Notes under the pieces: model-generated
Database searches by the model: none
Told to the model about the DNA's origin: nothing
What the model saw: only the letters and a program-made list of their open reading frames with translations
Program-made: the position numbers and the translations under genes
Shown here: positions 1 to 23,063 of the stretch, piece by piece
How the letters are laid out: every line of letters begins with the position of its first letter
Numbering within the stretch: the stretch's first letter is position 1
Source of the DNA: Chitinophagaceae bacterium
GTDB lineage: Bacteria; Bacteroidota; Bacteroidia; Chitinophagales; Chitinophagaceae
Assembly (NCBI GenBank): GCA_019752045.1
Contig: JAIEMP010000013.1
Coordinates: 1-64,000 of the forward strand
DNA length: 64,000 nt
Direction: 5' to 3'

Positions 1-334
1 CGACCTTCCGCTTACAAGCGGGACGCTCCAGCCAACTGAGCTTAATAATATAATCTAAAAAACAAAAGGCCCGCATTGCTGCGAATCTTATAAAGCTTGT
101 TGAAAGTATCGGGCGATACGACCTTCCGCTTACAAGCGGGACGCTCCAGCCAACTGAGCTTAATAATATAATCTAAAAAACAAAAGGCCCGCATTACTGC
201 GAACCTTATAAAGCTTGTTGAAAGTATCGGGCGCTACGACCTTCCCGCTTACAAGCGGGACGCTCCAGCCAACTGAGCTAAATAATATAATCTAAAACAA
301 AAGGCCCGCATTACTGCGAACCTTATAAAGCTTG
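1..334 (-). repeat. Tandem array of degenerate tRNA-Ala copies, 118-bp period
   Basis: Copies begin at 1, 119 and 237, and the array runs off the left edge of the window. Read on the minus strand, each copy has a tRNA-Ala-like D arm, then an 18-nt palindrome (TCCCGCTTGTAAGCGGGA or a one-base variant) where the anticodon arm should be. A shortened, decayed T arm and a terminator-like hairpin follow. The intact tRNA-Ala at 335-408 is in effect the next unit, because flanking and terminator sequence are shared. The copies should not fold as functional tRNAs: the acceptor 5' strand is lost and the T arm lacks about four bases. They could be products of slippage duplication or remnants of integration at a tRNA. 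Confidence 0.85.
293..324 (-). terminator. Rho-independent terminator of tRNA-Ala
   Basis: On the minus strand an AAGG...CCTT stem, extended by CGCA/TGCG, is followed by a T-rich run (TTTGTTTT) directly downstream of the tRNA-Ala 3' end. The same hairpin recurs in each 118-bp degenerate copy. Confidence 0.7.
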
Positions 335-6716: not shown

Positions 6717-6779
6717 AGTGAAATGTTTTTTATGATACGACAAATTGTATGCGAATGTTACAGGAACGTGAAAAGAATT

Positions 6780-6787
6780 TATCTTTG
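6780..6787 (+). promoter_or_regulatory. Predicted -7 box upstream of the TPP riboswitch
   Basis: TATCTTTG matches the Bacteroidota -7 consensus TAnnTTTG and lies about 40 bp before the riboswitch core. A hairpin with arms GTCAAAA and TTTTGAC around GGCGAAGCC (6792-6819) sits between box and riboswitch. No -33 TTTG was found at the usual distance. Confidence 0.45.
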
Positions 6788-6823
6788 CCCCGTCAAAAAG
6801 CGGCGAAGCCGGTTTTGACACAG

Positions 6824-6916
6824 ATTCCCCGGGGTGCTATTCTCCTGCCAAGGCAGGAGGGGCTGAGATTAAACCCGTAGAACCTGATCAGGGTAATGCC
6901 TGCGCAGGGAAGGAGG
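6824..6916 (+). promoter_or_regulatory. TPP riboswitch (THI element)
   Basis: The conserved core is directly readable: GGGGTGCT, then a P3 hairpin, GGCTGAGATTAAACCC, GAACCTGATC, GGGTAATGCC and GCGCAGGGAA, in the order of the thiamine pyrophosphate aptamer. The P3 arm is an 18-nt perfect hairpin, CTCCTGCCAAGGCAGGAG (6842-6859). GGGAA of the aptamer end can also pair with TTCCC about 20 nt downstream, which may form part of the expression platform. It precedes a TonB-dependent receptor, so the regulated step is predicted to be uptake of thiamine or a thiamine precursor across the outer membrane. Confidence 0.95.
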
Positions 6917-6983
6917 ATTTTTTATTCCCCTCTTTTCGTTTCGCAGCATTTCCGTCTCAATTTTTAACTGTAAAAAACAGAAG

Positions 6984-9410
6984 ATGATGAAAAAATTGAT
7001 GCTGGGAATGTTGGTGATTTTATCACAACAAATTTCAGTGGCTCAGTACAAACTGAGCGGGAAAGTAATTGATGGAGTAACAAAAGCTCCGGTAGAAAAT
7101 GCAACGGTTGAAATTAACCGGATTGCTGTAACGCAAACAAATGCGGCAGGTATGTTCAGCACGGGTGTTGCAAAAAAAGGAACTTATCGTATCCGCATCA
7201 GCACTGTAGGTTACAAAACAGTGGAACAGGATGTGATGGTGAATGAAAAAGAAACCGGACTCCAGTTTTCATTGCAGCAACAGCAACTGATGCTGAAGTC
7301 TATTGAGATCAATGCCATCCGTGCAGGCGACCGGATGCCCTTTGCAAAAACCAATCTCAGTAAAAAAGAAATTGAGAAAGCAAATCTGGGACAGGATCTT
7401 CCATTCATTGTGAACCAAACGCCTGCTGTTGTTGTAAACTCCGATGCAGGAAATGGAATTGGATACACGGGCATCCGTATCCGTGGCAGCGATGCAACAA
7501 GAATCAACATGACATTGAATGGCATTCCTTACAATGATGCCGAAAGCCAGGGATTATTTTTTGTAAATCTTCCTGATTTTTCTTCTTCAGTCAATTCAAT
7601 TCAAATTCAGAGAGGTGTTGGTACTTCATCAAATGGTGGAGGTGCATTTGGAGCCACACTCAACTTAAGCACCAATGAGTTTAATGAAAAACCATATGCT
7701 GAAATAAATACAGGTGGCGGCAGTTTTAATACATTGCGGCAAACGATTAAAGCAGGAAGTGGTTTAATGGGTGGACATTTTACCGTTGACACCAGACTTT
7801 CATTCATAAACAGTGAAGGGTTTATTGACAGGGGAAGCTCAAATCTTGGTTCGTTGTATTTTTCTGCGGCATACATCAACAAAAAAACCTCCCTTCGTTT
7901 CAATGCATTTACAGGCAATGAAAAAACCTATCAATCATGGAACGGTATACCCGAAGCAAAACTGAAACGCAATGATGCAAAACTGATGGAGCATTATCTG
8001 AACAATGCATCATCGCTCTACCCTACGGTTGAAGATTCGCTGAATCTGTTTGCAAACAATAACAACAGAACATACAATGTGTTCCGGTACAACAATCAAA
8101 CAGATAATTACCGGCAGGATCATTACCAGTTATTCTTCAACCATGAATTAAATAAATACTGGAGCGTAAACAGCGCTTTCTTTTTAACACGTGGAAAAGG
8201 CTATTATGAAGAATACAAAGTAAAGGAGTCGCTGGATGATTATGGATTAAATGCTGTTGATGCAGACATCATCCGACAGTTGTGGTTAAACAACTGGTTT
8301 TACGGGACAACCTTTTCGGCACAATACAAAAAAGAAAAAGATCAGTTGAGTATTGGTGGTGCATATACCCGTTATAAAGGTTTGCATTACGGCAAAGTCA
8401 TCTGGAGCGAAGTAGCAGTGCCAAAAGATTATAAGTGGTACGATCTTGATGCGTATAAAAATGATTTTAACCTGTACACAAAATATCAGCGAAGGTTAAC
8501 TCCACGTTTGGAAGCATTTGCTGATTTGCAATACCGCAGTGTAACATATACCATCAACGGCTTTAGAAAAAACCCCACATTAAAATCTGGTGGTGATTTT
8601 AATTTCTTTAATCCAAAGCTGGGTATTTCGTATGCTGACAGTAAGGGCTGGCTTGGCTTTGCATCGTTCAGCGTTGGAAACAAAGAACCCAACCGGGAAG
8701 ATTTTGAAGCAGGTGCTGCACAAAAACCTAAACATGAAACTTTGTACGATCTGGAACTGAATATTGAAAAACGCAGTTCGGTTTTCAGTGCAGGTGTAAC
8801 AGGTTATTTGATGCGATATAAAAATCAATTGGTGTTAACAGGTCGTATTAATGATGTGGGCGCTTATACCAGAACAAACATCCCCGAGAGTTACCGTGCA
8901 GGTATTGAATTAACTGCTTCATTAAAACTCACTGATTGGTTTAACCTTGCTGCAAATGCAAGCTTCAGCCAAAACCGGGTGCTGAATTTTACAGAATTTG
9001 TAGATGATTATGATAATGGCGGACAAAAAGAAAATCTCTACAGGACTTCGCCACTTGCTTTTTCACTGGCTGTTGTAAGCGGAGCTACTGTGAATTTTAT
9101 TCCTGTAAAAAACGGAGAGATCAGTCTCATCAACAAATATGTATCACGCCAGTATCTTGATAACACCGGCAACAAGTCCAGAAGTATTGATCCGTTTTTT
9201 ATAAGTGATCTGCGTTTGAGTTATGGCATCCGTATAAAACGCATCAAAGAAATCAATCTGGTATTTCAAATAAATAATGCGTTCAATACATTGTATGAAG
9301 CAAACGGATATACCTTCAGCTATATCTATGCCGGCCAAACTATAACGGAGAATTTTTATTATCCCATGGCAGGAATAAACTTCCTTGCAGGAATCAATAT
9401 CAAACTGTAA
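6984..9410 (+). CDS. TonB-dependent receptor, predicted thiamine (precursor) importer
   Basis: An 808-residue outer-membrane receptor that would use TonB energy to import a ligand. A signal peptide (residues 1-20) is followed by a carboxypeptidase-regulatory-like beta-sandwich (about 22-105, 'GKVIDGVTKAPVENATVEI'), the plug domain (about 120-230, with 'GIRIRGSDATRINMTLNGIPYNDAESQG') and a C-terminal beta-barrel ending in an aromatic-rich strand. The TPP riboswitch 70 bp upstream is the main argument for thiamine or a precursor as ligand; TPP-controlled TonB receptors are known in Bacteroides. Either of two adjacent ATG codons could start it. No TPP biosynthesis gene is nearby. Confidence 0.9.
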   Translation: MMKKLMLGMLVILSQQISVAQYKLSGKVIDGVTKAPVENATVEINRIAVTQTNAAGMFSTGVAKKGTYRIRISTVGYKTVEQDVMVNEKETGLQFSLQQQQLMLKSIEINAIRAGDRMPFAKTNLSKKEIEKANLGQDLPFIVNQTPAVVVNSDAGNGIGYTGIRIRGSDATRINMTLNGIPYNDAESQGLFFVNLPDFSSSVNSIQIQRGVGTSSNGGGAFGATLNLSTNEFNEKPYAEINTGGGSFNTLRQTIKAGSGLMGGHFTVDTRLSFINSEGFIDRGSSNLGSLYFSAAYINKKTSLRFNAFTGNEKTYQSWNGIPEAKLKRNDAKLMEHYLNNASSLYPTVEDSLNLFANNNNRTYNVFRYNNQTDNYRQDHYQLFFNHELNKYWSVNSAFFLTRGKGYYEEYKVKESLDDYGLNAVDADIIRQLWLNNWFYGTTFSAQYKKEKDQLSIGGAYTRYKGLHYGKVIWSEVAVPKDYKWYDLDAYKNDFNLYTKYQRRLTPRLEAFADLQYRSVTYTINGFRKNPTLKSGGDFNFFNPKLGISYADSKGWLGFASFSVGNKEPNREDFEAGAAQKPKHETLYDLELNIEKRSSVFSAGVTGYLMRYKNQLVLTGRINDVGAYTRTNIPESYRAGIELTASLKLTDWFNLAANASFSQNRVLNFTEFVDDYDNGGQKENLYRTSPLAFSLAVVSGATVNFIPVKNGEISLINKYVSRQYLDNTGNKSRSIDPFFISDLRLSYGIRIKRIKEINLVFQINNAFNTLYEANGYTFSYIYAGQTITENFYYPMAGINFLAGINIKL

Positions 9411-9414
9411 ACGT

Positions 9415-9446
9415 AAAGAGGGAACAGAAATTTCTGTTCCCTCTTT
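9415..9446. terminator. Bidirectional terminator between convergent genes
   Basis: A 32-bp perfect palindrome (arm AAAGAGGGAACAGAAA) starts four bases after the TonB receptor stop codon and is followed by AAAA on the plus strand. Reading is possible from both sides, and it separates the receptor from the convergent rhodanese gene. Confidence 0.85.
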
Positions 9447-9491
9447 AAAATATTCTCGTGTTTCTTTGTATCTCTTTCCTCTGTATTGAAA

Positions 9492-14552: not shown

Positions 14553-16940
14553 TTGCACGATAAAAAACAGCTATCCGAAAGAGACATTTGTACCAAATAC
14601 ATTACACCTGCGCTACAAAGAGCAGGATGGGATATTGAGTCGCAAATATTAGAAGAAGTATCTTTTACCGATGGTAAGATTTACGTTCGGGGTAAGCTAA
14701 CTGCAAGAGGTAAAAGAAAAAGAGCCGATTACATTTTATACTATCGTTCCAACCCTATTGCAATCATAGAAGCAAAGGATAATACTCATTCAATTAGTGC
14801 AGGTATTCAACAGGCTTTGGATTATGCAAGAATATTAGACATTCCATGTGTATTCAGCAGCAATGGAGATGGATTTTTATTTCATGATAGAACTGTCAAA
14901 GATAATTCGATCGAAACAGAATTAACCTTAGAGGCATTTCCCTCACCGGAAGATTTATGGAACCGGTATAAAATCTTCAAGGGCATTCAATCAGCAGAGC
15001 AGGAAAGAATTATTTCACAGGAATATTATTCGGATGGTTCGGGCCGTAAACCAAGATACTACCAGGAAGTCGCTATCAATAGAACGATTGGTGCGATAGC
15101 TAAAGATAAAAACAGGATGCTATTGGTAATGGCAACGGGAACAGGTAAAACATATACTGCTTTTCAAATCGTTTACCGGTTGTGGAAAGCAAAAGTGAAA
15201 AAGAGAATTTTATTTCTTGCTGATAGAAATGTGCTGATATCACAAACAAAGAATAATGACTTTCGCCACTTTGGCGATAAAATGACGTGGGTAAAAAACA
15301 GGCAGGTAGATAAAAGTTATGAAATATATCTGGCCTTATACCAGGGAATATCCGGCAACGAAGTTGAAGCCAATATCTATAAACAATTTTCTCCCGATTT
15401 TTTTGACCTAGTAGTAATAGATGAGTGCCATCGGGGAAGTGCAAAAGATGACAGTGCATGGCGGGAGATACTGGCCTATTTTAAAAACGCTACTCATCTT
15501 GGATTAACCGCTACGCCAAAAGAAACCAACGAAATTTCCAACATTGAATATTTCGGCGATCCTATTTATACCTATTCATTAAAACAGGGCATAGATGATG
15601 GTTTCCTTGCACCTTATCGTGTTGTAAGAATTGGGTTAAATATTGACCTGGAAGGCTGGCGGCCACAAAAAGGAAAATTGGATAAGGAAGGAAACCCGAT
15701 AGAAGACAGAATTTACAACCGCAAAGATTTCGACCGCAATATTGTTATTGATGAACGCACAGATACCGTTGCCAAAAAAATAACTGAGTTTTTAAAAGGC
15801 ACAGGAAGATTTTCGAAAACGATAGTGTTCTGCGTAGATATTAACCATGCAGAAAGGATGCGATCTGCCCTTGCGAACCACAATACCGATCTTGTAAAAG
15901 AAAATTACAAATACATCGTACAGATAACCGGCGATAATGAAGAAGGCAAAAGAGAATTAGACAACTTTATTAATGTAGAAGAAAAATACCCCGTGATTGC
16001 TACTACTTCTAAATTAATGAGTACTGGTGTAGATGCACAAACCTGCAAGGTGATTGTGCTGGATAGTAATATTGCCAGCATGACCGAGTTCAAACAAATC
16101 ATTGGCAGGGGTACAAGAATAAGAGAAGATTTCGGGAAACTATATTTCACCATTCTTGATTTCAGAAATGTAACTGACCTGTTTGCCGATCCTGATTTTG
16201 ACGGGCCGCCGATCCGAATTAAAGAAGCTGCCGAAGGCGATGATCTTTCTACTGTTGAGTTAGAAGAGGAAGAAATAGAAGATCTCATAATTGATAATGT
16301 AAGTGGTGAGGAAATAAAAATAAGAAAGCCGGTTCGCTACCCCGACAATGATATGCAAACGATGGCCCGGGAACGAAAGCCAAAAATATTTATAAATGGC
16401 GTTGACGTTTCTGTATTAGTATCAAGAGAAATGTATTTTGATAATGAAGGCAAACCCATAACCGTAAGCCTGAAAGACCATACAAAAGAAATTATCAAAA
16501 ATCATTACGCATCAATGGATGAGTTCCTGAACAAATGGAACCATACCGAAAAGAAAGCCGCCATTGTAAAGGAGCTGGAAGAACAAGGAGTATTAGTAGC
16601 AGCATTACAGGATGCCGTGAATAAAGAACTGGATTTATTTGATTTGGTTTGCCATGTGGCATACGATCAGCCGCCGCTGACAAGAAAAGAAAGAGCCAAT
16701 AATGTAAAAAAACGAAACTACTTTACGAAGTATGGTGAACAGGCAAAAAAAGTAGTAGATGCTTTGCTGGATAAATATGCGGATGAAGGCATAACCACTA
16801 TTGAAAGTGCGGAAGTATTATCAATTGACCCTTTATCTAACTTCGGCACTCCGTATGAAATTATACAGGCATTTGGCGGAAAAGAAAATTACAATGATGC
16901 CGTAAAGGAGTTGGAGAAACAATTATATCAATTTGCTTAG
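14553..16940 (+). CDS. hsdR: Type I restriction enzyme subunit R (HsdR, EcoEI-like)
   Basis: The ATP-dependent motor and nuclease subunit of a type I restriction system, 795 residues. The N-terminal nuclease domain shows D59 and EAK (E73, K75) of the PD-(D/E)xK site. The SF2 helicase has ATGTGKT (194-200), DECH (290-293), LTATPKE and 'QIIGRGTRIRED'. A C-terminal EcoEI_R-type specificity/assembly domain follows. The start is a TTG at 14553; an in-frame stop lies 18 bp upstream, and the 'LSERDICTKYITPAL' opening fits the family, so no longer start is possible. It belongs with hsdM and hsdS at 17.9-20.9 kb, separated by a DUF3800 gene. Confidence 0.95.
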   Translation: MHDKKQLSERDICTKYITPALQRAGWDIESQILEEVSFTDGKIYVRGKLTARGKRKRADYILYYRSNPIAIIEAKDNTHSISAGIQQALDYARILDIPCVFSSNGDGFLFHDRTVKDNSIETELTLEAFPSPEDLWNRYKIFKGIQSAEQERIISQEYYSDGSGRKPRYYQEVAINRTIGAIAKDKNRMLLVMATGTGKTYTAFQIVYRLWKAKVKKRILFLADRNVLISQTKNNDFRHFGDKMTWVKNRQVDKSYEIYLALYQGISGNEVEANIYKQFSPDFFDLVVIDECHRGSAKDDSAWREILAYFKNATHLGLTATPKETNEISNIEYFGDPIYTYSLKQGIDDGFLAPYRVVRIGLNIDLEGWRPQKGKLDKEGNPIEDRIYNRKDFDRNIVIDERTDTVAKKITEFLKGTGRFSKTIVFCVDINHAERMRSALANHNTDLVKENYKYIVQITGDNEEGKRELDNFINVEEKYPVIATTSKLMSTGVDAQTCKVIVLDSNIASMTEFKQIIGRGTRIREDFGKLYFTILDFRNVTDLFADPDFDGPPIRIKEAAEGDDLSTVELEEEEIEDLIIDNVSGEEIKIRKPVRYPDNDMQTMARERKPKIFINGVDVSVLVSREMYFDNEGKPITVSLKDHTKEIIKNHYASMDEFLNKWNHTEKKAAIVKELEEQGVLVAALQDAVNKELDLFDLVCHVAYDQPPLTRKERANNVKKRNYFTKYGEQAKKVVDALLDKYADEGITTIESAEVLSIDPLSNFGTPYEIIQAFGGKENYNDAVKELEKQLYQFA

Positions 16941-17037
16941 GTTTGATTAAAAAATACTTTGGGGTACCATTTTGGTGACTTCAACAAAATGGCTGTAATA
17001 GACAGAAGTGTAAATTGAAAATAACGATACTTTTTTA

Positions 17038-17823
17038 ATGAAATACAGAATTTACATAGATGAAGTGGGCAACTCTGATATAAAAAGCTCTGCAAACGAA
17101 GATCACCGCTTTCTTTGCCTTACCGGAGTTATTTTCAGGCTTGATTATGTAAGCGAGGTATTGCAGCCTGAATTAGAAGCATTAAAAGCTAAGTACTTTG
17201 GCTCACATCCTGACGACCCGGTAATATTTCACCGGAAAGAATTGGTGTATAAAAAACACCCTTTTCAAGTATTGGCCAATCCGGAAACTTCAAAAGCTTT
17301 CGATGAAGAATTTCTACAACTCCTCGCTAAATGGGATTACAAGGTAATTGGAGTGGTAATTGACAAGCAGGAGCATAATAATAACTACGCTGACACCTGG
17401 AAATATGACCCCTATCATTATTGCCAGGAAATATTATTGGAGCGGTACAAACTGTTTTTAAATATTCAGAATGCATCCGGCGATGTAATGATTGAATCAA
17501 GAGGGGGAAAAGAAGATATAAGATTGAAGAAATCCTTCAGAACACTGATGGACAAGGGAACTAACTATCTTACAGCAGAAGAATTAAATGAACGTATTAC
17601 TTCTAAAGAACTAAAAGTAAAAGCAAAAGGGGCCAATGTGGCTGGTTTGCAATTAGCCGATTTGATTGACCATTCTGTAAGAAGGTATGCCTTTAAAAAT
17701 ATCCTTAAAATGGATGATGGGAAAACTACTTTTTCAGATGCAATTATTGATGTGTTGGCGGCCAGTAAGTTTTTTAAATACAAAGGAAGAATCTATGGTT
17801 ATGGCGTTAAGAAACTTCCCTAA
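17038..17823 (+). CDS. DUF3800 protein inside the type I restriction locus
   Basis: A 261-residue protein with the DUF3800 signature: 'YIDEVGNSD' near the N-terminus (D8, E9), a following 'HRFLCLTGVIF', a central 'VIGVVIDKQEH' strand, 'DVMIESRGGKED', and C-terminal 'GLQLADLIDHSVRRY' with a conserved Asp. DUF3800 is an RNase H-like fold family that often occurs in phage and defence contexts; its activity is mostly unproven. Here it lies between hsdR and hsdM on the same strand, about 100 bp after hsdR and 130 bp before hsdM. The position suggests a role tied to the restriction system or a passenger. An inverted repeat (CCATTTTG/CAAAATGG, 16967-16992) precedes it. Confidence 0.85.
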   Translation: MKYRIYIDEVGNSDIKSSANEDHRFLCLTGVIFRLDYVSEVLQPELEALKAKYFGSHPDDPVIFHRKELVYKKHPFQVLANPETSKAFDEEFLQLLAKWDYKVIGVVIDKQEHNNNYADTWKYDPYHYCQEILLERYKLFLNIQNASGDVMIESRGGKEDIRLKKSFRTLMDKGTNYLTAEELNERITSKELKVKAKGANVAGLQLADLIDHSVRRYAFKNILKMDDGKTTFSDAIIDVLAASKFFKYKGRIYGYGVKKLP

Positions 17824-17869
17824 AAAAAGAAACCCCTCGAAAGGGGCAAGGGCCATACAACCCTCCACC

Positions 17870-17883
17870 TCCGCATAAGCGGA
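17870..17883. repeat. Short palindrome TCCGCATAAGCGGA
   Basis: A 14-bp palindrome in the gap between the DUF3800 gene and hsdM. It resembles the TCC..C-N-G..GGA palindromes found in the degenerate tRNA copies and the TPP riboswitch. A CCCCTcgaaAGGGG hairpin also lies in this gap. Confidence 0.5.
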
Positions 17884-17953
17884 TTAACGTAAAAGTAGTA
17901 AATTATTTTTTACTACAAAATGTAAAAGCATATTTGTAACATAATCTTTGTAA

Positions 17954-19384
17954 ATGAGCAACTTAACCTCCACCATAAAATCCATTCAGGACATCATGCG
18001 CAAAGACGCCGGTGTGGATGGCGATGCACAACGTATCTCACAACTCGGCTGGATGCTCTTCCTCAAAATATTTGATGAGATGGAAGAAGAATGGGATACG
18101 ATTAAAGAAAATTATAAATCTCCCATACGTACAGACCTGCGCTGGCGCCACTGGGCTGCCGATGCAGAAGGTATGACAGGTGATGAGTTGCTGGACTTTG
18201 TAAACAACACCCTCTTCCCAACCATGAAGAACATGAAGCTGCGCAATAATAAAGATGCAGCTAAAATGGTAAGAGATGTGTTTGAAGACAGCTACAACTA
18301 CATGAAGAGCGGTACACTGCTGCGGCAAGTGATCAATAAAATAAATACCGACATCAACCTGAACACACAGGCCGAACGACATGCCTTTAATGATATTTAC
18401 GAACAGATACTCCGTGACCTGCAGAGTGCCGGCAATGCCGGTGAGTTTTATACACCACGGCCGATAACACAGTTTATTGTAGAAATGATAGACCCTAAGC
18501 TGGGAGAAACCATTCTTGACCCCGCATGTGGCACAGCGGGATATTTAGTAAATGCCATTGAACATATCCGGAAAAACAGTAAAGTAAAAACGCTGGCAGA
18601 AAGAGATAAATTACAAAACAGTATAAAAGGCGTAGAGAAAAAACCACTGCCGCATATGCTGGCTACTACCAATTTAATACTGCACGGTATAGAAGTGCCC
18701 ACCATTGAGCATGATAACTACCTGAATAAAACATGGGCCAACTGGACAGAAAAAGAACGGGTGAATGTAATAATTACCAACCCGCCCTTTGGTGGTATGG
18801 AAGAAGATGGTGTAGAAAATAATTTTCCATTAACCTACCGAACAAGAGAAACAGCCAATCTCTTTATGGCACTCATCATTCATTTATTAAAAGATGAAGG
18901 CCGCTGCGGATTGGTATTGCCCGATGGATTTTTATTTGGCGAAGGTGTGGCCACAAGAATAAAAGAAAACCTGCTGGAAAAATGCAACCTGCATACCATT
19001 GTACGATTGCCCAATGGAGTGTTTGCACCATACACCGGTATTAAAACAAATTTATTGTTTTTTGAAAAAGGAAAACCCACCAAAGACATCTGGTATTTTG
19101 AACACCCCTACCCGGATGGTGTAAAAATGTATAATAAAACCAAACCCATTAACATAAAAGAGTTTGACTTAGAAAAAGCATGGTGGAAGAAAAGAGTGGA
19201 GAATGAATATGCCTGGAAAGTAAGTGTAGATGAAATAAAGAAGCGGAATTACAATCTTGATATAAAAAATCCGAAGGCAGCTGAAGCACAACATTCTTAC
19301 ACAAGTAATGAGTTGCTTGAGTTATTGGATAAAAGTTTTAGCCGTAGCCATGAATTGTTAGGACAGTTAAAAGCAGAATTATGA
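17954..19384 (+). CDS. hsdM: Type I DNA methyltransferase subunit M (HsdM)
   Basis: The N6-adenine methyltransferase subunit of the type I system, 476 residues. The N-terminal helical domain (about 1-150) precedes a Rossmann-like methyltransferase domain with the SAM-binding motif DPACGTAGYL (189-198) and the catalytic motif NPPF (276-279). 'EFYTPRPITQFIVEMIDP' is the typical junction between the two domains. Its stop codon overlaps the hsdS start codon (ATGA), so M and S are translationally coupled, which fits the 2M:1S stoichiometric assembly. With HsdR it forms the full restriction complex. Confidence 0.96.
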   Translation: MSNLTSTIKSIQDIMRKDAGVDGDAQRISQLGWMLFLKIFDEMEEEWDTIKENYKSPIRTDLRWRHWAADAEGMTGDELLDFVNNTLFPTMKNMKLRNNKDAAKMVRDVFEDSYNYMKSGTLLRQVINKINTDINLNTQAERHAFNDIYEQILRDLQSAGNAGEFYTPRPITQFIVEMIDPKLGETILDPACGTAGYLVNAIEHIRKNSKVKTLAERDKLQNSIKGVEKKPLPHMLATTNLILHGIEVPTIEHDNYLNKTWANWTEKERVNVIITNPPFGGMEEDGVENNFPLTYRTRETANLFMALIIHLLKDEGRCGLVLPDGFLFGEGVATRIKENLLEKCNLHTIVRLPNGVFAPYTGIKTNLLFFEKGKPTKDIWYFEHPYPDGVKMYNKTKPINIKEFDLEKAWWKKRVENEYAWKVSVDEIKKRNYNLDIKNPKAAEAQHSYTSNELLELLDKSFSRSHELLGQLKAEL

Positions 19385-20934
19385 ATGTTCTAATTTGGCA
19401 AAATGTTTTTTTTAATAATATCCCCACATATATCTCATTGATTAATGAGGCATTGGCAAATGAGTTTCCCTTAGAACCACTTTCAAATCACATTAAAGTA
19501 CAAGGGGGATATTCATTCAAGGCAAATGAGTATAGAAGCGAAGGCATACCGATTATACGAATCTCTGACTTTCAGGATGAAAAAATTGATTTGTCTTCAG
19601 TAAGATATTATAAGGAGGAAAAAGCATTTGATAAATTTGAATTGTTTCCTGGCGATATTATAATTGCAATGACAGGTGGAACAATTGGGAAATTAGCAAT
19701 TGTACAAGAAGGATTAGGAAAGTTATACCTAAATCAAAGGGTTGGCAAGTTTTCAATCATTAATAAAAATGAATTTGAACCTGAATATATCTACTGGCTG
19801 GCAAGAGGAATTCAGGATAAAGTAAAAAACTTGGGTTATGGCGGTGCGCAGCCAAATATTGGTAACTCACAAATTGAAGCATTGCGTTTTTCATTTCCTT
19901 CCAAAAAAATTCAATTGAAAATAATTGAATTCTTAAACGATATAAAGGAGAATAAATTAAAGAGTAAAATATATTTTAATGAGGTAGTTGAAAATAAAAT
20001 AAAAAAATATCAATCTGCAGGTGTGAATTTGTTTACAGTATTAGAGGAATGTGATAATCAACAAACCCATCTCCAACTTCTCCGCCAGGCTATTTTACAA
20101 GAAGCAGTACAAGGCAAACTTACCAAACAAAACAAAGATGATGAACCAGCAGCTAAATTATTACAACGCATAAAAACCGAAAAGCAAAAACTGATAGCAG
20201 CAGGCAAACTAAAAAAAGAAAAAGAACTACCACCCATTACTGAAGATGAAATACCATTTGAATTGCCAATGGGTTGGGTGTGGTGCAGGTTGGGGGAGAT
20301 TGGCAATATTATGGATGGTGCCATTATTGATGGTCCTTTTGGGACTTCAATAGACGTTAAAAGGGATTATATTACTGAAGGAATTCCAGTAATTAGAATG
20401 ATGAATATTAAACCTTATCGGTTTTTAACAAACGAATTAAAATTTGTTTCAGAAAATAAGTTTGAAGAGTTAAAAAGATATAATATTCAACCAGCTGATA
20501 TTGTTTTTTCAAAAGTTGGTGCGGGCATAGGAGAAGCTTGTATTGTTCCTGAAACAATAAAAATTGCTATGATATCTACAACAGGAGTAACAAGATTTAG
20601 AGTGGGTCAAATTGTTGACCCTTTGTATTTATGTCACTTTCTAAATTCCTATAAACCTGAATTCATCAGGCTAGCTTCGACAACTGCTCAACCTTTTTTA
20701 AATATGGCAACAATTAAAAGGGTACTCTTTCCTCTCCCCCCACTTTCCGAGCAGCACCGCATAATAACCAAAGTGCAGCAGTTGCTGCAAATAGTAAACC
20801 AGTTAGAGCAGCAGGTAGCCCATAGCCAAGCTCAGACCGGCCAATTGCTGCAGGCGGTATTAAAAGAGGCGTTTAGTAATACCGGCAAAGTGTATGAGGA
20901 AAATGAGATGATGACGATGGCGGCGGAGGAATAA
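19381..20934 (+). CDS. hsdS: Type I specificity subunit (HsdS)
   Basis: The DNA-recognition subunit, 517 residues, with two target recognition domains. TRD1 (about 25-190) contains 'GDIIIAMTGGTIGKLAIV'. TRD2 (about 290-470) contains 'ADIVFSKVGAGIGEACIV'. Each is followed by a conserved helical spacer: 'QTHLQLLRQAILQEAVQGKL' after TRD1 and 'SEQHRIITKVQQLLQIVNQLEQQV' after TRD2. The two recognition domains are more AT-rich and less like each other than the helical parts, as expected for swapped specificity domains. The recognition sequence cannot be read from the protein. No second hsdS or invertase is present nearby. Confidence 0.95.
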   Translation: MNVLIWQNVFFNNIPTYISLINEALANEFPLEPLSNHIKVQGGYSFKANEYRSEGIPIIRISDFQDEKIDLSSVRYYKEEKAFDKFELFPGDIIIAMTGGTIGKLAIVQEGLGKLYLNQRVGKFSIINKNEFEPEYIYWLARGIQDKVKNLGYGGAQPNIGNSQIEALRFSFPSKKIQLKIIEFLNDIKENKLKSKIYFNEVVENKIKKYQSAGVNLFTVLEECDNQQTHLQLLRQAILQEAVQGKLTKQNKDDEPAAKLLQRIKTEKQKLIAAGKLKKEKELPPITEDEIPFELPMGWVWCRLGEIGNIMDGAIIDGPFGTSIDVKRDYITEGIPVIRMMNIKPYRFLTNELKFVSENKFEELKRYNIQPADIVFSKVGAGIGEACIVPETIKIAMISTTGVTRFRVGQIVDPLYLCHFLNSYKPEFIRLASTTAQPFLNMATIKRVLFPLPPLSEQHRIITKVQQLLQIVNQLEQQVAHSQAQTGQLLQAVLKEAFSNTGKVYEENEMMTMAAEE

Positions 20935-20961: not shown

Positions 20962-21336
20962 ATGGCAACAACTGCAGCTAATAACAATTCGTTTTGGGGT
21001 ATGATAATTTACGAGATTAAAGGAGACGGAACATTGTATGGCACATGGAAAAATAACCAACTATCAAATGATTCTATATTAGGTGAAATTGCAAGAAAGA
21101 ATGATAACAATCCTGATATTGAAGGCTTATATACTGTTTCATGGATTGAAGAAAACAATCAACCTCAAGTAGGTACTTTAACTATAAATCTAATTGAAAA
21201 TAATACCGCCCTTTCTTTTGAATGGCAAGATTCAAATAACCAAGAAGTTTTTAGAGGGATGGGGATGCCGATTGGTTTAGACCGAATTGCCGTTACTTAT
21301 TGGAATACGGTCCAAGCTTTACAATTATCCTTTTAA
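20962..21336 (+). CDS. Small unknown protein directly after hsdS
   Basis: A 124-residue soluble protein that starts 28 bp after hsdS on the same strand. It has no signal peptide or membrane segment. The pattern of alternating hydrophobic residues, with 'IEGLYTVSWIEENNQPQVGTLTINLIE' and 'ALSFEWQDSNNQEVFRGMGMPIGLDRIAV', suggests a small beta-barrel or beta-sandwich similar in style to lipocalin-like domains. I do not recognise a family. Its place at the end of the restriction operon makes it a candidate accessory protein, but this is context only. The base composition is AT-rich like hsdS. Confidence 0.6.
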   Translation: MATTAANNNSFWGMIIYEIKGDGTLYGTWKNNQLSNDSILGEIARKNDNNPDIEGLYTVSWIEENNQPQVGTLTINLIENNTALSFEWQDSNNQEVFRGMGMPIGLDRIAVTYWNTVQALQLSF

Positions 21337-21498: not shown

Positions 21499-21534
21499 TT
21501 ACCTGTACAACCTCAAAAGAGGTTGTACAGGTAA
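21499..21534 (+). terminator. 16-bp perfect inverted repeat, probable terminator of the restriction operon
   Basis: The arm TTACCTGTACAACCTC and its exact complement are separated by AAAA and followed by AAACC. The stem is long enough to end transcription, although the T run is poor on both strands. It separates the restriction operon from the toxin-antitoxin-chaperone module and could also be a protein-binding palindrome. Confidence 0.55.
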
Positions 21535-21570: not shown

Positions 21571-21601
21571 TTTGGAATTCAGGAATTTGGCCTTATGTTT
21601 G
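21571..21601 (+). promoter_or_regulatory. Bacteroidota promoter of the toxin-antitoxin-chaperone module
   Basis: TTTG (21571-21574), a 19-bp spacer, and TATGTTTG (21594-21601) match the -33 TTTG and -7 TAnnTTTG consensus with the expected spacing. The predicted start of transcription lies about 6-7 bp after the -7 box, inside the palindrome at 21603-21620. Confidence 0.75.
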
Positions 21602-21602
21602 C

Positions 21603-21620
21603 CTTAACTTATAAGTTAAG
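21603..21620 (+). promoter_or_regulatory. 18-bp perfect palindrome, predicted autoregulatory operator
   Basis: CTTAACTTATAAGTTAAG is a perfect palindrome directly after the -7 box and directly before the TTG start codon of the first gene. An XRE-type antitoxin is encoded in the operon. Such antitoxins usually repress their own promoter by binding a palindrome over the start site, so this is the expected operator. Binding has not been shown. Confidence 0.7.
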
Positions 21621-22130
21621 TTGATAGTTCAATTCATTGAAATACCGGAGCTGGCTTTTGAAAAAGTGCATTATTATACCGTGCTGCTGGAGGGTCGACC
21701 TCATTCAGAATTCAGGGATTTTCAAATCCGTATGACACTGCAGAAAAAAGACAGGACTGATCTGGCAGAAATAAACCGGTATATACAACAAATAGGAGAC
21801 GAGTATGGCGCACACACACAACATTTCAAAAAAGAAGACGCTGCAGAGCGATTACCCCCGCCTTATCATGTGTTCATTGAAACAGAGGAACCCAATGATT
21901 ACGGGCTTCGTCTTTACTGCATCCGTCTTTCACCTTCCGTAGTTATTTTATTAAACGGCGACAGGAAAACCGCATTAAAAGTGCATGATTGCAACAACTG
22001 CTATGTGCATTTTGACCGTGCAAGAAAAATATCCCGTGAAATAGACCGGGCCATTACAGATGGGTTTATTGAAATAGACGACGATGAAAAAGAACTCATT
22101 CTTGATGAAGATTTTGACATAACTATATAA
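21621..22130 (+). CDS. Predicted toxin (RelE/HigB-like) of a toxin-antitoxin-chaperone module
   Basis: A 169-residue acidic protein, first gene of a three-gene operon. The central segment 'YGLRLYCIRLSPSVVILLNGDRKTA' followed by 'FDRARKISREIDRAI' (about 94-145) has the strand-strand-helix layout of RelE/HigB toxins ('R.y...-...vvLLhgf.KK...A...I'), but this is a distant match. The N-terminal part (about 15-85) is extra, and an acidic tail (EIDDDEKELILDEDFD) follows. It starts at a TTG directly after the operator palindrome, and a stop codon lies just upstream in frame. Toxicity is inferred from context: an XRE gene follows at 22 bp, then a SecB-like gene. An alternative is a DNA-modification or sensing protein of unknown type. 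Confidence 0.6.
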   Translation: MIVQFIEIPELAFEKVHYYTVLLEGRPHSEFRDFQIRMTLQKKDRTDLAEINRYIQQIGDEYGAHTQHFKKEDAAERLPPPYHVFIETEEPNDYGLRLYCIRLSPSVVILLNGDRKTALKVHDCNNCYVHFDRARKISREIDRAITDGFIEIDDDEKELILDEDFDITI

Positions 22131-22152
22131 AGGAAAAGGAACCACAACTCCC

Positions 22153-22602
22153 ATGATAAAAAAGAAAAAAATACTAAAAGCAGAAGCTCTCCCTGAATTC
22201 AAAGCGTCTGTTGATGCGATGCCGGAGGACAGCAAAATATTTGTTGATAAGTCTCTGGAGATTGCTCATTACATTTTCAGGTTAATGGATCAAAAGGGAA
22301 TGAAACAAAAAGACCTGGCTTCTAAAATGGGTAAAACAGAGGCAGAGCTGAGCAAGATTTTAGCTGGCATGCATAATCTTACGCTTCGTTCTGTTGCCAA
22401 ACTGGAGGCTGCGCTTGGTGCAACTATTATTTGCACTCCTGTAAATAAAAAAATTGCATTCCCTAAGTTGAATTCGGAAAGAACTAGCTACGCAGTATCA
22501 GAAAAAAAACCGGAACGCACTGCTCATACGTTGAGCGGCTATGGCATGGTTGTTCAAATGAATACGAATAATGGTTTTCAAAACAGTTCACAGGCAATAT
22601 GA
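22153..22602 (+). CDS. XRE-family antitoxin with long C-terminal tail
   Basis: A 149-residue protein with an HTH_3 (XRE) DNA-binding domain at about 38-95 ('IFRLMDQKGMKQKDLASKMG', 'ELSKILAGMHNLTLRSVAKLE'), resembling HigA antitoxins. The roughly 54 residues after it (96-149) are not part of the HTH, are rich in Ser/Thr/Asn and end in GFQNSSQAI. In known toxin-antitoxin-chaperone systems a C-terminal chaperone-addiction (ChAD) tail makes the antitoxin depend on a SecB-like chaperone, and this tail is a candidate for that function. An AGGAAAAGGA Shine-Dalgarno-like stretch precedes it. Its stop codon overlaps the next start (ATGA). Confidence 0.85.
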   Translation: MIKKKKILKAEALPEFKASVDAMPEDSKIFVDKSLEIAHYIFRLMDQKGMKQKDLASKMGKTEAELSKILAGMHNLTLRSVAKLEAALGATIICTPVNKKIAFPKLNSERTSYAVSEKKPERTAHTLSGYGMVVQMNTNNGFQNSSQAI

Positions 22603-23063
22603 GTACTGAAAAAAAAGTAGACCCCGAAAAAATACAGATCGTTAATATCAGAACAATCAAGGGGAATATTAATGGTACGTCAGACATCGATGAAACCCTT
22701 ATAGGAGGTCACCAGTTTAATTTTGAATTAGGTACAGGATTAAATCCTGAAGAGAATATTGTTGGCCTGCAACTCATGGTCAGCATTACAGCAAAGGATA
22801 AAAATGAAGTTCCACTCGATATCCGTGGATCCTATACGCATGAAATTATTTTTATAGTAGAAAACCTGAATGAGTTTCTAACAGAAACAGGTACCTCCGA
22901 AAAGAAAAAGTTTATTGTTGATGGCACACTTGGAAGTATTTTAGTAAGTATTGCCTATTCAACAGTTCGGGGTATTATTTTTACCAGAACACAAGGCACT
23001 TCTCTAGGTACTGTTATTCTACCGGTAATTGATCCAAAACAACTAATGAAACTTCATCAATAA
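22599..23063 (+). CDS. SecB-like chaperone of the toxin-antitoxin-chaperone module
   Basis: A 154-residue protein that reads as a SecB fold. It has several beta-strands with 'FNFELGTGLNPEENIVGLQL' and 'GSYTHEIIFIVENLNEFL', followed by the long helix 'GSILVSIAYSTVRGIIFTRT' and the C-terminal 'TVILPVIDPKQLM' that parallels the SecB ending '..LPPINFxxL'. Export SecB is found mainly in Proteobacteria. Outside that group, SecB-like proteins are often solitary chaperones that control toxin-antitoxin pairs, as Rv1957 does in Mycobacterium tuberculosis. The start overlaps the antitoxin stop (ATGA), which fixes a coupled, dependent translation. The fold call is by eye and should be tested by profile or structure search. 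Confidence 0.72.
   Translation: MSTEKKVDPEKIQIVNIRTIKGNINGTSDIDETLIGGHQFNFELGTGLNPEENIVGLQLMVSITAKDKNEVPLDIRGSYTHEIIFIVENLNEFLTETGTSEKKKFIVDGTLGSILVSIAYSTVRGIIFTRTQGTSLGTVILPVIDPKQLMKLHQ

Follow-up and report, generated by a model that had tools for sequence, protein, structure and literature searches.

Toxin-antitoxin-chaperone (TAC) modules are known as a kind of system, and several described members allow a comparison with the locus presented here. The accessible parts of the literature describe the TAC of Mycobacterium tuberculosis (HigB1-HigA1-Rv1957) as stress-responsive (PMC11618068, PMC5105189, PMC8165232) and report the CmdTAC, MqsRAC, and HigBAC TACs to be anti-phage (PMC11618068, PMC9519451, PMC11980606); a phage capsid protein is said to draw off the chaperone of CmdTAC (PMC11618068), and for HigBAC, the reported trigger is a tail protein of a phage (PMC11980606). 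Here, we analyzed a window of 64,000 nucleotides from a Chitinophagaceae bacterium (GCA_019752045.1, contig JAIEMP010000013.1, positions 1 to 64,000, forward strand), in which three adjoining genes at 21621 to 23063 very probably form a type II TAC module (probability of about 0.88). What is new is a TAC whose toxin and chaperone escape direct recognition by Pfam; the sources searched assign no function to its lineage. An earlier note had read the locus as a TAC of Bacteroidota, and this reading is supported by the RelE/HigB fold predicted for gene 1, the SecB fold predicted for gene 3, and the co-occurrence of the trio. The module consists of the following features:

21621 to 22130, forward strand: gene 1, predicted toxin of diverged RelE/HigB fold, 169 amino acids from a TTG start (AlphaFold, Foldseek, VIA, hhalign, PADLOC PDC-M64A/B)
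22153 to 22602, forward strand: gene 2, XRE-family antitoxin, 149 amino acids (Pfam HTH_3, PADLOC PDC-M64B/C)
22432 to 22599, forward strand: C-terminal tail of gene 2 (about residues 94 to 149), candidate chaperone-addiction region ending in -QAI (tail-chaperone tracking, C-terminal enrichment, ClpX degron comparison)
22599 to 23063, forward strand: gene 3, predicted SecB-like TAC chaperone, 154 amino acids, overlapping gene 2 by ATGA
21571 to 21601, forward strand: putative Bacteroidota-type promoter, with TTTG at 21571 to 21574, a 19-bp spacer, and TATGTTTG at 21594 to 21601
21603 to 21620, no strand: operator-like perfect 18-bp palindrome CTTAACTTATAAGTTAAG, directly 5' of the TTG start codon

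The adjoining genes, the promoter-like boxes, the palindrome, and the ATGA overlap can all be read directly in the sequence, and the described layout of a TTG-started gene for 169 residues, an XRE gene 22 bp on, and a third gene overlapping it stands. Beyond chance, all three proteins match models of PDC-M64, a defense candidate that carries no description in the PADLOC library (2e-45 for gene 1, 1.6e-26 for gene 2, and 1.1e-27 for gene 3; each protein compared with the single models), and our analysis proposes an identity for this candidate. Neither a paper on PDC-M64 by name nor an account of this gene family was found in the open-access literature, searched without bioRxiv preprints and with few subscription journals.

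Structural alignments with the M. tuberculosis TAC give 10 to 11% identity, the window toxin is longer, and the antitoxin tail has no tryptophan, unlike the HigA1 chaperone-binding peptide in the accessible part of its publication (PMC6377645). Gene 1 has profile similarity to the Gp49-type HigB toxins (PF05973), as in HigBAC of Escherichia coli, but is not matched by PF05973; an additional N-terminal strand, an insertion in the middle, and further strands at the C-terminus lie beyond the core that aligns. CmdTAC likewise has a SecB-like chaperone in third position, and the chaperone of one locus (L010) matches both the PDC-M64C (M64C) model (1e-14) and the PD-T4-9_C model of CmdTAC (PD-T4-9) (4.2e-4). 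However, CmdT is an ADP-ribosyltransferase, unlike gene 1, and CmdA is described in the available part of the source as two N-terminal helices with a disordered tail, not as an XRE protein (PMC11618068). Two further loci of the phylum (L168, at 694 to 1926, and L171) combine a Gp49-like toxin, an XRE antitoxin, and a SecB-like protein and are other probable TACs.

Predicted folds of the toxin and the chaperone

The AlphaFold model of gene 1 has a predicted local distance difference test (pLDDT) score of 90.2, and comparison of this model by Foldseek and VIA returned matches to RelE/HigB toxins, which places gene 1 by its predicted fold in the RelE/ParE (BECR-fold) superfamily and gives the locus a toxin of a known toxin-antitoxin fold. 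In addition, hhalign, run with control comparisons, aligned gene 1 to the Gp49/HigB profile with a probability of 89.7; the similarity to Pfam Gp49 is at the profile-profile level only, and the Gp49 and HigB profiles were built from 20 and 23 extracted proteins, a subset of the loci found. A match between Gp49 and an antitoxin profile (probability of 82) was rejected; it was gone once a presumed toxin-antitoxin fusion (L123) was left out. Residues R97 and K116 of gene 1 are invariant in A1 and A7, align near an R and a K of the Gp49 toxins, and are candidate catalytic residues. As modeled, gene 1 encodes a divergent toxin of the HigB/RelE type, extended as the earlier note had supposed, and by analogy its activity would be ribosome-dependent mRNA cleavage.

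Longer and more diverged relatives of gene 1 (175 to 200 amino acids; L013 to L017, L024, L027, and L030) occur with the same types of antitoxin and chaperone. In L020, L021, and L031, the place ahead of the XRE gene and the M64C chaperone gene is taken by different small genes that belong to no clear family and are possibly further toxin types.

Structure prediction and fold comparison give gene 3 the fold of SecB, in agreement with what had been noted from its last residues, and so place a SecB-like chaperone in the operon. Pfam SecB (PF02556) does not match gene 3 directly, and the two are linked only through the match in fold and through a bridging protein; Pfam SecB itself occupies the same operon position in three relatives. 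The SecB fold would also fit a general SecB for protein export, with the operon as a housekeeping regulator rather than a toxin module, and Pfam SecB is rare in the phylum sample (8 of 296 genomes) and was not found in the genome of the window. Against this, the M64C model matches in only 77 of 395 sampled Bacteroidota genomes, which is patchy for a housekeeping gene, and M64C accompanies toxin-like genes of several types; we regard an export SecB as the least probable of the explanations considered, with hardly any weight left to it. M64C-matching genes with no recognized gene-2-like antitoxin upstream are present in L012, L023, L025, and L028, and L095 has a second gene-3-like match (6744 to 7103) downstream of the trio.

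Coupling of the antitoxin tail with the chaperone

The XRE identity claimed for gene 2 was confirmed by a match to Pfam HTH_3 at residues 43 to 91 (E = 5.5e-9). Of 44 gene-1 loci from a genome collection, all have gene 2 and 41 have gene 3, so that the co-occurrence of the trio holds in this set. Of the three loci short of gene 3, one contig (L083) ends inside gene 2, and in two loci (L072 and L073), gene 3 is missing and the antitoxin is tail-less; the open reading frame (ORF) of gene 1 was not called in L106 and L107 and is split in L108.

To compare tails, toxin-antitoxin loci were pooled from several searches, and the residues C-terminal to the conserved helix-turn-helix region were counted. 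Loci with no complete gene 2 found (L058, L060, and L083) and loci without a gene-1 match at 1e-5 (e.g., L010, L012, L020, L021, L023, L025, L028, L031, L106, and L107) were left out, near-identical rows were merged, and L108 was counted once. Where an M64C gene follows (70 distinct loci), the antitoxin tails have 30 to 86 residues, with a median of about 52. Nine further loci have no M64C match: three carry Pfam SecB, with tails of 30, 31, and 51 residues; five have no recognized chaperone, with tails of 9, 11, 12, 12, and 20 residues; and the ninth is L059. Hence, the tail is long in 73 of 73 loci with a chaperone and short in five of six without one, in loci that are related by descent, and the C-terminal extension goes with the chaperone with one exception. 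No M64C match was found anywhere in the four genomes of the 395-genome sample (G190, G359, G261, and G370) that are the source of four of the five short-tail loci.

The pairs of gene 1 and gene 2 without a chaperone (L032/L073, L072, L036, L039, and L049) would fit an ordinary two-gene HigBA-type module that an unrelated third gene overlaps by chance. The presence of gene 3 in 41 of the 44 loci, its match to the SecB fold, and the association of chaperone and tail speak against such a module, which we consider very improbable. In the tree of gene 1 (rooted at the midpoint), L072/L073, which have no chaperone, are nested in a clade of 14 with good support (95/92), with weak support for their placement within it (82/52). 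Because the other members of the clade carry the chaperone, this nesting suggests a joint loss of tail and chaperone. Natural pairs with and without a chaperone offer an evolutionary test of chaperone addiction.

The ends of the tails are also alike. Among 70 distinct antitoxins, 60 end in [AV][AVILMSGT], compared to 8.0% of 435 ORFs of at least 150 amino acids from the same loci, and 35 end in two of [AVILM], a stricter pattern, compared to 11.3%; some genes of the trio are among the control ORFs, and that the first pattern was picked after inspection of the ends lessens its value as support for a TAC. The end of the window antitoxin, -QAI, is a candidate ClpX degron. According to the accessible part of a review, HigA1 has its ClpX degron in the terminal pair Val-Ala, and a C-terminal Ala-Ile resembles a ClpX degron (PMC8165232). 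On visual inspection, an aromatic residue followed by alternating hydrophobic residues is often found close to the C-terminus in the clade of the window (GYGMVVQM in the window antitoxin), and flavobacterial tails often have a Y-[VI]-[YF]-[LF] segment; both are candidate chaperone-binding segments.

Several results weigh against a TAC. At E ≤ 0.001, Foldseek gave no match to the gene 1 model, and comparison of gene 1 with the HigB_toxin profile (PF09907) gave a probability of 0.1, so that gene 1 is not matched by PF09907. At E ≤ 1, Pfam recognizes neither gene 1 nor gene 3; NCBIfam has no match to gene 1 and a single, meaningless one (0.075) to gene 3, PHROGs gave nothing useful for either, and the PDB profile search with gene 1 found chance matches only (best E = 0.39). 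The same search found SecB for gene 3 at an E value of 0.038, and direct profile comparison of M64C to SecB is weak (probability of 25 to 40). Furthermore, 8 of 42 upstream regions contain no inverted repeat at the settings used, and the antitoxin of L059 has a tail of 47 residues with no chaperone gene visible. Finally, in the looser sample of 395 genomes, the gene-1 model matches in 46, and of its 49 matches only 29 have an adjacent M64C and 20 have none at E ≤ 0.001, three of these with Pfam SecB instead.

Operator-like palindrome and proposed mechanism

The promoter proposed by the earlier note, TTTG-19 bp-TATGTTTG, lies at 21571 to 21601 as claimed and fits the consensus of Bacteroidota-type promoters. 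The motif TTTG-17..21-TAnnTTTG precedes gene 1 in 8 of the 42 upstream regions scanned, all of the window's clade, and TTG stands at the start position of gene 1 in all 12 rows printed for this clade. The 18-bp palindrome at the start, CTTAACTTATAAGTTAAG, is perfect, has a single copy in the genome of 4.16 Mb, and recurs identically and in register in L065, L066, L068, L069, and L071; a number of other copies are preceded by shorter or varied forms (TTAACTTATAAGTTAA, TTCACTT..AAGTGAA). Over the upstream regions, the best arm length averages 7.5, compared to 5.8 in mononucleotide shuffles (the window's own best is the repeat at 21501 to 21532). The window contains one other perfect palindrome of at least 18 bp, TAAAGAGGGAACAGAAATTTCTGTTCCCTCTTTA, with 34 bp at 9414 to 9447. 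With its conserved sequence and position, the palindrome at 21603 to 21620 is a candidate operator to which gene 2 may bind.

We propose a model that joins the computed folds, the gene order, the coupling of tail and chaperone, and the conserved operator-like sequence. The gene 2 product would neutralize the toxin and repress the operon by binding to the palindrome; its tail would carry a chaperone-binding segment and end in a ClpX-like degron (-AI), and the SecB-like chaperone would hold and shield this tail. If the chaperone is lacking or is occupied by another client, e.g., a phage structural protein as is reported of CmdTAC, the antitoxin would be degraded, presumably by ClpXP, and the toxin released to stop translation. 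These steps are drawn by analogy with the described TACs.

Restriction and BREX neighborhood

The module is preceded by the following features:

14553 to 20934, forward strand: type I restriction-modification operon (HsdR, DUF3800 protein, HsdM, HsdS; PADLOC REase_I, MTase_I, and Specificity_I; Pfam DUF3800)
20962 to 21336: ORF for 124 amino acids between hsdS and the module, without a clear family
21501 to 21532, no strand: inverted repeat with 14-bp arms around a 4-nt loop, located past the restriction operon and ahead of the module, a possible transcription barrier

The module had been described as sitting directly after the restriction operon; the operon does lie upstream, but the 124-residue ORF and the inverted repeat separate hsdS from the module, which for this reason is probably its own transcription unit. 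The terminator scan did not call the repeat, and its role as a barrier is putative.

The trio is located beside or near type I restriction genes in the window, L068, L087, L100, and L107, and is flanked by brxC and pglX within a BREX operon in four loci of different lineages (about 3965 to 5330 in L081, L090, and L103; 1416 to 2777 in L097). The gene-1 tree does not discriminate between one and two origins of the BREX embedding. The main text of a 2026 survey of BREX diversity, as far as accessible, mentions neither SecB nor a chaperone (PMC12839542). We also scanned 50 neighboring proteins (1 or 2 per locus, 44 loci) against PADLOC with an E cutoff of 1e-15 or 1e-10, depending on the batch. 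At least 16 of the 44 loci have a matching neighbor, and the other 28 have none among the one or two scanned; the first 20 proteins were chosen for size, which favors matches, some matches are to domains of broad families, and the counts were made without a matched background control, which weakens the link to defense, so that we claim no enrichment. A pooled scan of 70 flanking proteins also gave pAgo, AbiEi, and others, which could not be assigned to loci and were not counted.

The position beside restriction genes and, in some of the relatives, within BREX operons makes it more likely than not that the module serves phage defense as an abortive second layer. A true TAC kept for stress response or stabilization of the locus is a serious competitor, if a less probable one: the M. 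tuberculosis TAC is the stress-responsive precedent, and the 28 loci without a PADLOC match would fit. The at least 16 loci with a matching neighbor, four of them with BREX on both sides (again without a background control), and the anti-phage activity reported for the three TACs cited at the outset argue for a role in defense. More tentatively, and rather doubtfully in its full form, the M64 TAC may be a portable second-layer sensor for DNA-targeting defenses that is inserted next to type I restriction genes and into BREX operons. In this reading, structural or anti-restriction proteins of a phage would be lured by the chaperone as a decoy, and a phage escaping restriction would free the toxin; either M64C or Pfam SecB could serve as the exchangeable chaperone unit, with tail and chaperone gained and lost together. 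The BREX-embedded copies make the wiring of such layered defenses directly testable, and the M64C matches in the phylum sample extend chaperone-gated toxins through the Bacteroidota.

On mobile elements, tblastn found no match for gene 1 in plasmids or phages and none for gene 3 in plasmids (phages were not searched with gene 3). In viral contigs, the search with gene 3 gave no locus and that with gene 1 gave three (L062 to L064), which are putative phage contigs with the full trio, matching at the same coordinates (4977 to 6386 in L062); the ORFs near the trio in L062 look like phage tail genes by eye. Elsewhere in the window, the DUF3800 gene lies inside the restriction operon at 17038 to 17823, and a thiamine pyrophosphate (TPP) riboswitch is found at 6820 to 6927 (Rfam RF00059, 72.5 bits).
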